From Bacilli bacterium (GTDB lineage: Bacteria > Bacillota_I > Bacilli_A > RFN20 > CAG-826), in NCBI GenBank assembly GCA_024408565.1, contig JAKSUW010000005.1, forward strand, positions 1 to 54,131: DNA of 54,131 nucleotides, given 5' to 3'. How positions within the stretch are numbered: position 1 is the stretch's first letter; the number at the start of each line of letters is the position of its first letter. A program made the position numbers and the translations under genes. Under the pieces are notes generated by a model. It had not been told where the DNA came from, did not search any database, and was given only the letters and a program-made list of their open reading frames with translations. This document shows, one piece after another, positions 3,468-32,381 of the stretch.

Positions 3468-5227
3468 TAGAGTTCGCTCTCCTTTAATTGTGATAACGCG
3501 ATTTCGCGATAAATTTTACAAGTCTTTAAAAGTTTTTCGTGTTTCCCTAACCCGACCATTTTACCCTTATCGATAACTAAGATTTGGTCCGCGTTTTTAA
3601 TCGTGCCAATCCGTTGGGCCACAATAATAATTGTGGTATCTTTTAAATATTCTTTTAAGCCCTTCCGCACTAACATATCCGTTTTATAATCAAGCGCCGA
3701 GAAAGCATCATCAAGAATTAAGACTGGTGCATTTTTATAAATTGCCCGGGCAATACTAAGCCGTTGTTTTTGTCCACCCGAGAAGTTTGTTCCACCTTGG
3801 GCCACTTCGGTGCGCACGCCGTTTTTTAGGCGATGGACAAAGTTAGCCTGCGCCGTCTTAATCGCGTAGCGGAAATGCTTATCATCATCTTCGATTGCTT
3901 GATTACTACCATAGGTAATGTTTGATTTAATATCACCTCTAAATAAGATAGCCTTTTGGGTAGCAATCGAAATATTATCGGTAATATCTTTTTGGCTAAA
4001 TGATTTAATGTTTTCACCATCCAATAAAATTTTGCCTTTACTTACATCGTAAAAACGCGGAATTAAATTAATAATTGAAGATTTACCTGAACCCGTCGCA
4101 CCGATAATTGCAAAGGTGGTGCCAGGCTTAATCGTGAAATTAATATTCTTCAAACAAGGTGATTGGGCGTCAGGATAAGCAAAAGAAACATTTTTAAAAG
4201 TGACTTCACCACGAATCCGTGGATGTTTATTTTCTTTGGGATAAACAATACTAGTTTTGGTATCAAGGACTTCGTTAATCCGCCGCGCTGAAACAATGGA
4301 GCGTGGTAATAAAATAAAGATTAAGATGAGCATCATAAACGCGATAACGACTTGAAGAGCGTATTGGGTGAAAGCAGTCATATTCGCGATGATTTGAGCC
4401 CGTTCCGCCGCACTGGCGGGATCAGTTAACGGGATTTGATTAATTAAACAAGCGGCAATCCAATAGATGGCTAAAGTTAAACCACTCATACATAAAGTCA
4501 TCACTGGCATCATGACGCCCATTGCCCGTGAAGTGAATAAGTTATTTTCAGTTACCGTTTTATTAGTCACGCCAAATTTATTGGATTGATACTCTTCCGC
4601 GTTAAAGGCGCGAATAACGCGCACACCCGTGATGGTTTCACGCATCGCGTTATTTAAATCATCGGTTAATTTTTGAATCTTTTTAAAGCGCGGATAACAA
4701 ACTAGAACAATAAGACCAACACAAGCGATAATCACTAATACACAAATTAAAACCGCCATAGTCCATTCAATACTGGTCGAGGAAATTTTACAGACGGCCC
4801 AAATAGCTAAAATCGGCGCTTTAATTAAAACCTGCATGCCTAAGGCAATAAACATTTGCATGTTGACTACGTCATTCGTAGTCCGCGTAATTAAACTGGG
4901 GGTGGAAAATTTATTCATTTCCGCATCGGAGAACGAGGCAATTTGGTCATAAAGTTTACTACGTAAAGTCCGCGAGAAGTTAGCGGCGATGTGACTAGAA
5001 AAATAGCCAGTAGCAATCGCGGCACACATACTCGCAAACGCTAGACCTAACATAATCCCACCGTTAATCCAGACTTCGTTTTTATCCTGCTCGGCTATTG
5101 ATTCAGTTAACTTCGCTGTGTAATCAGGGATTGTTAAATCAAGGTAAACTTGTAAAACAATTAAACCAATCGCGATGATTAAAAAAGCGATGTCACGTTT
5201 TGATAGATGTTTAAAAATTTTTAACAC
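3467..5227 (-). CDS. ABC exporter subunit (permease-ATPase), degenerate-site half
   Basis: A 586-aa ABC half-transporter, first gene of the exporter operon. Six membrane segments lie in residues ~12-310, then a nucleotide-binding domain with Walker A GATGSGKS (~375), signature FSGGQ (~482) and Walker B LILDDAFSALD (~505). Asp replaces the catalytic Glu in Walker B. In the composite dimer this non-catalytic Walker B faces the unusual LSEGQ of the partner, so one ATP site is predicted degenerate and the other (partner Walker B with this FSGGQ) active, as known for heterodimeric exporters. The start is GTG, with GAGGA 7 nt upstream. It is divergent from upp, with 132 bp between the starts. Confidence 0.9.
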   Translation of the reverse strand: MLKIFKHLSKRDIAFLIIAIGLIVLQVYLDLTIPDYTAKLTESIAEQDKNEVWINGGIMLGLAFASMCAAIATGYFSSHIAANFSRTLRSKLYDQIASFSDAEMNKFSTPSLITRTTNDVVNMQMFIALGMQVLIKAPILAIWAVCKISSTSIEWTMAVLICVLVIIACVGLIVLVCYPRFKKIQKLTDDLNNAMRETITGVRVIRAFNAEEYQSNKFGVTNKTVTENNLFTSRAMGVMMPVMTLCMSGLTLAIYWIAACLINQIPLTDPASAAERAQIIANMTAFTQYALQVVIAFMMLILIFILLPRSIVSARRINEVLDTKTSIVYPKENKHPRIRGEVTFKNVSFAYPDAQSPCLKNINFTIKPGTTFAIIGATGSGKSSIINLIPRFYDVSKGKILLDGENIKSFSQKDITDNISIATQKAILFRGDIKSNITYGSNQAIEDDDKHFRYAIKTAQANFVHRLKNGVRTEVAQGGTNFSGGQKQRLSIARAIYKNAPVLILDDAFSALDYKTDMLVRKGLKEYLKDTTIIIVAQRIGTIKNADQILVIDKGKMVGLGKHEKLLKTCKIYREIALSQLKESEL

Positions 5228-29921: not shown

Positions 29922-30575
29922 TTACTTAACCTCTACGGCTTGACCCGCTAAAGCAAGTACTGCGTCAGCCGGCTGCATTCCATCAATTGAGGTGACATAA
30001 CCCTTAGCTTCATAGAAACTAAGTAAGGGTTTCGTGTCACTATAATAGTGCGCTAAACGCGTCTTGAGCGAAGCTTCGTTATCATCTGGACGTTGCATGA
30101 GTGGTCCACCACAATGGTCGCAAATGCCTTCCACTTTGGGTGGGACATTAACGACGTGATAGGGCGTTCCACAATTCTTGCACACCCGCCGGCCGGAGAT
30201 GCGTTTCACCAAAATCGCTTCATCCGCCGTAAGATTAATAACTAAGTTCACCGGACGGTTTAACTTAGCGGTCAACTTCTCCAAAGCTTCCGCTTGCGCT
30301 AAGGTGCGTGGGAAGCCATCAAGAAGATAACCATGACTACAATCGTCTTGGGCAAGTCGAGCTTCAACGATACCAATGGTAACGTTGTCGGGGACAAGGT
30401 CCCCTCTTGCCATGTAGTCTTTGGCGAGTTGACCGAGTTCGGTTCCCGCCTTTATCGCTTCGCGAAACATGTCACCCGTTGAAATGTGCGGGATGTGATA
30501 CTTCGCGACCAGACGCTTTGCTAAGGTGCCTTTACCTGCACCGGGAGGTCCCATAAGGATAATATTACTTTTCAT
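29922..30575 (-). CDS. adk: adenylate kinase
   Basis: Catalyses ATP + AMP = 2 ADP. 217 aa. P-loop GPPGAGKGT at ~8-16, STGDMFREAI for AMP binding, DGFPRTLAQ. The LID carries a structural zinc site, CKNC and CDHC, as in Gram-positive long-form enzymes. Its ATG is in the same frame as the preceding ORF, separated only by that ORF's TAG and one codon. Confidence 0.96.
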   Translation of the reverse strand: MKSNIILMGPPGAGKGTLAKRLVAKYHIPHISTGDMFREAIKAGTELGQLAKDYMARGDLVPDNVTIGIVEARLAQDDCSHGYLLDGFPRTLAQAEALEKLTAKLNRPVNLVINLTADEAILVKRISGRRVCKNCGTPYHVVNVPPKVEGICDHCGGPLMQRPDDNEASLKTRLAHYYSDTKPLLSFYEAKGYVTSIDGMQPADAVLALAGQAVEVK

Positions 30576-30578
30576 AAA

Positions 30579-30986
30579 CTATAAACTTGCTCCTGCTGCT
30601 TGGACTTCTTCAAACGACTTGCCCGCTAAAAGGCCATCGATTTGCGCATTTAATTCAATCGCGACACCAACCACAATGATAAGGCTTGTACCACCTAAAG
30701 CCAAGGACTTATCATCGCCAAAGGCGTGCGCTAAGGTTAACACTACTGGTAAACCCGCAATGAAGGCTAAGGATATTGCGCCTAAGCAAGTAACGCGGTT
30801 TAAGACCTTACCAACATAACGTTCAGTTTCGTTACCGGGACGAATACCTGGAATATAAGAACCTGACTTTTGGAAGTTCTCCGCTAATTGTTGTGGGCTA
30901 ATTTGAATGCTCGCATAGAAGAAGCAGAATAAGATAGTTAAGGTGAGATAGATGAGAAGTCCCCACGGGAATTCAATATTACCCAT
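30579..30986 (-). CDS. secY: SecY C-terminal part (TM8-TM10) as a separate ORF
   Basis: 135 aa matching the last third of SecY: TM8 (PWGLLIYLTLTILFCFFYA), the long cytosolic C5 loop with GSYIPGIRPG, which contacts SecA and the ribosome, TM9 (CLGAISLAFIAGLPVVLT) and TM10 with SLIIVVGVAIEL. It lies in the same frame as the upstream secY ORF, separated by a TAG and five codons. A strong Shine-Dalgarno, GGGGAGG, lies 6 nt before its ATG. Either SecY is made as two polypeptides split in the external loop between TM7 and TM8, or a single-base change or error breaks one gene. Readthrough would give ~451 aa, a normal SecY length. Confidence 0.88.
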   Translation of the reverse strand: MGNIEFPWGLLIYLTLTILFCFFYASIQISPQQLAENFQKSGSYIPGIRPGNETERYVGKVLNRVTCLGAISLAFIAGLPVVLTLAHAFGDDKSLALGGTSLIIVVGVAIELNAQIDGLLAGKSFEEVQAAGASL

Positions 30987-31001
30987 TGGTGGCCTCCCCC
31001 G

Positions 31002-31934
31002 CTACGAGAAGATTTTTCGCCACGGGTCGTTCGCGGCATAAACGCTAATAAAGCTTGCGATCACGCTTGGTGCAAGCATAATGCTACTAGCAAAGATGAC
31101 CGGAATAACACCAGCGGAGTTAATCTTGATTGGTAAGAAACTCGCCCGCGCCATGGTTGGATTTGCGCCACCACGACCCGCGTGTTGAACCGGGATCTTT
31201 CGTTTACTTAATTCAATAAAGACGACGAAAGAAATAATGAGAACAAACACTAAGATATAAAGGATAAACTGGAAGCTACCCTTTAAGATTTCACTCGCTG
31301 GACGACCAATGCCTGGTAACACCCATTTTTCAAACGCGGTTTTAATTTGGATTGGTAGACTCCGGATACAACCCGCAAAGATAATAACCGAAATACCATT
31401 GCCTAAACCTTTACTAGTGATCTGGTCACCTAACCACATCATGAGCATTGAACCAGCGAGAATAACAATAATAATGTAAATATAAGACCAAGGCGCTGGG
31501 ATTTGACCGTCTAAGGTAATTAATGATTGGTTTTCCATGGTCTTGATAATGCCATAAGCTTGGACTGAACCAAGTAGAAGCGTTAAATAACGAGTCGCCA
31601 TTTCGCTTTTCTTCCGGCCATATTCACCTTGCTTACTTAATTCAGTTAAAGCGGGTAAAACATCTTTACTTAATAATTGGACAATAATTTGAGCGGTAAT
31701 ATATGGACTAACACCAAGTGCGAAGATGGAGAAGTTTTGTAACGCACCTCCACCAATTAAGTCCATTAAGCCAACCGCTCCAGCGTTTTTTAACGCCTCG
31801 GCTAAATCAGGACTTGGTGTAACACCAGGAACAGTAATCGTCGCCCCAATCCGAATGACTAAAAGAATCATGATTGTAAATAAAATCCGACTCATGACTT
31901 CTTTGTTCTTTAGGATGTTAGCGATTTTCTTCAT
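31002..31934 (-). CDS. secY: SecY N-terminal part (TM1-TM7), ends at an in-frame TAG
   Basis: Main channel subunit of the Sec translocon; 310 aa cover TM1 to TM7, including the plug region (GVTPSPDLAEAL... LMDLIGGGALQNFSIFALGVSPYITAQI) and the C4 loop with KRKIPVQHAGRGG. It ends after DPWRKIFS at TAG. The missing TM8-TM10 follow immediately as the next ORF in the same frame. The start lacks a visible Shine-Dalgarno and follows rplO by 6 bp. Position between rplO and adk is standard. Confidence 0.9.
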   Translation of the reverse strand: MKKIANILKNKEVMSRILFTIMILLVIRIGATITVPGVTPSPDLAEALKNAGAVGLMDLIGGGALQNFSIFALGVSPYITAQIIVQLLSKDVLPALTELSKQGEYGRKKSEMATRYLTLLLGSVQAYGIIKTMENQSLITLDGQIPAPWSYIYIIIVILAGSMLMMWLGDQITSKGLGNGISVIIFAGCIRSLPIQIKTAFEKWVLPGIGRPASEILKGSFQFILYILVFVLIISFVVFIELSKRKIPVQHAGRGGANPTMARASFLPIKINSAGVIPVIFASSIMLAPSVIASFISVYAANDPWRKIFS

Positions 31935-31940
31935 TAAATG

Positions 31941-32381
31941 TTATTTAATTTCCTTAATACTACCACCGGCTTTCTCAATCTTTGCTTTCGCGGATTTTGA
32001 AAACTTGTGGGCTTCAATATTGAGTTTCTTTTCTAAGGTTCCTTGACCTAAGATTTTCACTCCGGAACACTCACATTTTATAACACCATCACTTTTTAAT
32101 AAAGTGGGATTCACATTTGTTCCATCTTTATAACGGTTTAATTGTTCGAGATTAACGCAGGCATATTCCTTGCGGTTCATGTTGCTAAAACCGAACTTTG
32201 GTAACCGACGGTATAAGGGGTTTTGACCACCTTCGAAACCAACTTTCATATGGCCCGAACGGCTCCGTTGGCCTTTATGACCTTTGCCGCACGTCTTCCC
32301 ATTACCACTACCAACGCCCCGGCCTTTCCGGTACGCCTTCGTGACACTACCTGGAGTGTATTTTAATTCGTTTAGACCCAT
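31941..32381 (-). CDS. rplO: ribosomal protein L15
   Basis: Large-subunit assembly protein. 146 aa with the Gly-rich, basic N-terminus [20 protein letters not shown] and [18 protein letters not shown], ending in [15 protein letters not shown]. Directly follows rpsE by two bases: rpmD (L30), usually between them, is absent. Confidence 0.96.

Follow-up and report, generated by a model that had tools for sequence, protein, structure and literature searches.

A possible recent split of secY into two coupled cistrons in a Bacilli genome

The secY locus

The window, by which we mean the whole analysed stretch of 54,131 nucleotides (contig JAKSUW010000005.1 of assembly GCA_024408565.1, from an uncultured Bacilli bacterium of gut type), carries secY on its minus strand at the usual position in the ribosomal-protein operon, between rplO and adk. 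The reading frame is divided into two in-frame open reading frames (ORFs): the first encodes transmembrane helices (TM) 1-7 and ends in TAG, and five codons later an ATG opens TM8-10. The features are as follows.

29922-30575, minus strand: adk, the downstream neighbour (PF00406)
30579-30986, minus strand: secY ORF2, TM8-10, from the ATG at 30986 to its own TAG (135 aa; PF00344 positions 208-305)
30987-31001, minus strand: five codons from stop to start, CGG GGG AGG CCA CCA, including the very rare AGG
30993-30999, minus strand: Shine-Dalgarno-like GGGGAGG, separated from the ATG by 6 nt (pairing predicted at -11.0 kcal/mol)
31002-31004, minus strand: in-frame TAG stop, where the four congeneric copies all read TAT (Tyr)
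31002-31934, minus strand: secY ORF1, TM1-7, ending in that TAG (310 aa; PF00344 positions 1-202)
31941-32381, minus strand: rplO (L15), the upstream neighbour in the spc operon (PF00828)

Both ORFs share one frame, which stays open past the TAG, and the sequence around the break (within 30950-31050) carries TAG and GGGGGAGG. When read through the stop, secY matches the whole family model PF00344 (positions 1-305 of 306, 328.5 bits in a profile search); the separate halves score 215 bits (positions 1-202) and 108.9 bits (positions 208-305 of 306). Alignment to solved B. subtilis-type SecY locates the break in an external loop; from the known topology of SecY we take the flanking helices to be TM7 and TM8, in agreement with the original prediction. 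The layout proposed there (TM1-7, TAG at 31004-31002, five codons, in-frame ATG at 30986) is correct in every detail, and so is the spacing of 6 nt, since GGGGAGG (30999-30993) is followed by CCACCA and then the ATG.

SecY, the protein-export channel of bacteria, is essential and, to our knowledge, is always one chain. The gene described here shares with other SecY genes (PF00344) the full 10-TM sequence in order and the spc-operon place, and its nearest solved relatives are of the B. subtilis type, e.g., 5eul and 7xha; it differs in that a TAG cuts its frame in the external loop joining TM7 to TM8, where a Shine-Dalgarno (SD) sequence and a start for TM8-10 follow. Conserved residues are kept in both halves without extra decay (10 rare residues, versus up to 26 in relatives). 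It is the one secY of the genome (929,526 bases in 26 contigs, 90.8% complete, 0% contamination); a second copy elsewhere in these contigs was considered and ruled out, none being found. A plasmid collection yielded distant secY only, and the viral contigs searched held no same-species copy.

Comparison with related genomes

The four secY copies from congeners (G001 contributes two, G002 and G004 one apiece), whose proteins are about 83-84% identical to that of the window, all read TAT (Tyr), one base from TAG, at the stop position. Tyr occupies this column in 39 of the 78 usable family sequences, most of the rest having Thr or Ser. Among 146 order-level genomes, all of which were covered, secY was found in 143, and an internal stop occurs in this genome and in none of the other 142. 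A family-wide scan gave 188 genomes with a match; no other internal secY stop was seen among the best ~150 matches listed, where two TAA cases lie at or adjoining the C-terminus. Since it occurs in none of the 142 order-level genomes and none of the four congeneric copies, the break is not a shared, conserved trait. The original prediction had set out the right alternatives, a natural two-piece SecY or else a point mutation or error, but the sense codon in the congeners, which it had named as refuting evidence, rules out a split conserved among these relatives.

As the congeners are only ~83-84% identical, their TAT marks the break as young or false, and does not say which; the interrupted secY is known from a single metagenome-assembled genome. 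The column of the ORF2 start has Met in 64 of 78 relatives, so this ATG is an old internal loop Met and not a new one.

Several secY genes of the family are unusual in other ways. The G001 bin contains two different secY genes (on C5 and C15), 84% and 83% identical to that of the window; this bin, with 7% contamination, probably combines two organisms. The G002 gene on C41 (L080) has an N run (scaffold gap) in its N-terminal part and looks split in searches, and that of G007 (L033; C211, ~3900-3930) is broken near TM6 by a short deletion with a frameshift, which looks like an assembly defect. Both defects lie outside the TM7-TM8 loop.

Ribosome-binding site and loop

The GGGGAGG before the ATG has a predicted strength in the functional range, proper spacing and an in-frame start (the standard anti-SD sequence was assumed; the 16S 3' end is absent from the assembly). 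Pairing as strong as -11.0 kcal/mol is reached by 12% of the genome's 158 starts with homology support, for which a congener backs both the start and the extent of the gene. Not one internal in-frame ATG, out of 1,212, equals it, so the site is more than chance; the exact GGAGG precedes two of these internal ATGs. Most neighbouring operon genes begin with GGAGG-type sites, and none of the other secY genes with Met at the loop position has an SD of such strength before it. Relatives read GAG ATG at this place, from which two substitutions suffice for GGG AGG, and the codon AGG is used only 26 times among 55,888 in the genome. It is this exceptional ribosome-binding site that keeps the two-cistron reading alive.

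If the stop is read through, residues 306-316 of the resulting loop depart from the family. Leu 306, present in 77 of 78 relatives, is replaced by Arg (L306R); the stretch contains three Arg, versus none (72 relatives) or one (six), and the net charge of the loop is +2, versus -5 to 0. Replacing only the stop by a sense codon would therefore still leave an untypical loop, and an odd loop would be expected if TM7 and TM8 were no longer linked by it. Locally divergent stretches between this genome and its congeners are nevertheless common (94 in 130 genes), which weakens the argument from the loop; on the same count, divergence of the loop was dropped as a sign of error.

Changes of the type T>G/A>C are in excess in the loop (6/14 vs 29/225; Fisher p = 0.008, a post hoc test chosen after the data were seen). 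Such a lean also occurs in sequencing error, and here it could reflect error or chance. Compensating frameshifts were assessed by reading the other frames by eye and setting -2/+2 indels against relatives: an alignment with a TA deletion and two additional G is roughly as good as one with substitutions only. Two further candidates were rejected. The other checkable GC runs, considered as signs of a genome-wide G-rich artefact, are mostly ordinary Ala, Gly, Pro or Arg codons shared with congeners, and against a repeat or insertion, the GC-rich stretch is single copy in the genome and absent from the other loci compared.

Readings of the interruption

We consider, with a probability of about 0.45, that secY has undergone a recent, lineage-specific split into two translationally coupled cistrons. 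It is a shade more doubtful that a living bacterium makes its sole SecY as two separately translated, assembling pieces (TM1-7 and TM8-10), the second from a newly evolved ribosome-binding site. The sequence itself, its absence from relatives, the strength of the site and the ordinary role of TAG are established, while a genuine stop, the production of both pieces and their assembly are inferred. In the outside loop between TM7 and TM8, one transversion would have turned TAT (Tyr) into TAG. One or two further changes in the ancestral GAG-ATG codons immediately after it would have created GGGGAGG, and with it a strong ribosome-binding site serving the old internal loop Met. Ribosomes ending TM1-7 would then reinitiate 15 nt later on TM8-10, and the second piece would insert with its short tail on the outside and assemble with TM1-7 and SecE. 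A young two-cistron SecY, here known from one assembly, predicts a strong and well-spaced SD, an odd loop and a harmless location of the break, none of which is predicted by a single base error.

Naturally split bacterial genes occur as adjacent, translationally coupled cistrons. The secY described here resembles them in its short gap, single operon, own SD and break in a surface loop; the known cases are conserved within clades, whereas the proposed split of secY occurs in one genome and is known from sequence. Proteolytically nicked or fragment-complemented forms of E. coli SecY are laboratory constructs, reportedly cut in a cytoplasmic loop and not between TM7 and TM8, and would be a precedent for a SecY that functions in pieces; a search for literature on split or nicked SecY found no paper bearing on the case. 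If the split is true, the two helices of the lateral gate, TM7 and TM8, can do without a covalent link, the fission of a gene for an essential membrane protein has been caught very early (a stop plus a new SD over an old Met), and the question arises how TM8-10 inserts apart from the first half of the channel. If false, the locus usefully illustrates how an in-frame stop can turn up in a metagenome assembly that is clean elsewhere.

A consensus error, which we place behind the split but regard as a serious possibility, would mean that secY is continuous and its consensus has a single wrong base, or several within a poor stretch, with the ATG as an ordinary loop Met and the SD as a by-product of the same G-rich stretch. 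Findings of this kind come most commonly from a single base error, and the present data leave room for one. An error accords with the continuous congeners, all one base from TAG, with a stop unique among the 143 order-level genomes with secY, with the T>G/A>C excess, and with the other secY breaks in the family (the N run in G002 and the frameshifting deletion in G007), which are plainly assembly defects. On the other hand, when congeneric ORFs were compared with 577 kb of the genome, secY alone was interrupted among ~182 full-length places, other stops falling in antisense ORFs or at termini; with no further gene interrupted, the base quality of the assembly looks good. Correcting the TAG alone would also leave the arginine-rich, positively charged loop unlike that of any relative, a point weakened by the many divergent stretches elsewhere, and fewer than 1 in 1,212 internal ATGs are preceded by an SD this strong.

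It is improbable that the stop is a real nonsense allele of the sampled population, whether leaky readthrough of TAG yields full-length SecY or the variant is transient, in the minority or dying out. The frame open after the stop and the conservation of both halves would suit such an allele, but this is the sole secY in the genome, and the strong SD would have to be coincidence. Readthrough at its basal rate is low for the needs of an essential channel. Moreover, TAG terminates 19 of the 158 homology-checked genes, release factor RF1 is present, and none of the 38 tRNA genes found in the 90.8% complete genome has a CUA anticodon. These three facts bear out the view of the original prediction that TAG is a true stop and general recoding unlikely, and they lead us to reject general or programmed recoding of TAG as an amino acid, a highly improbable reading that has the open frame after TAG in its favour and nothing else, and an ordinary RNA structure at the site against it, even if a suppressor tRNA may lie in the missing ~9% of the genome.

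As regards the coupling of the two proposed cistrons, a stem predicted within 30940-31040 (minus strand) pairs GGGGAG of the SD with CUUCUC inside ORF2. If real, this stem would hide the SD unless ORF1 is translated, a point against the site, and would favour coupling to ORF1 translation; it is no stronger than in shuffled sequences (z -0.97). The start of secY itself, at 31934 on the minus strand, has almost no SD (+0.4 kcal/mol), unlike most genes of the operon and unlike ORF2.
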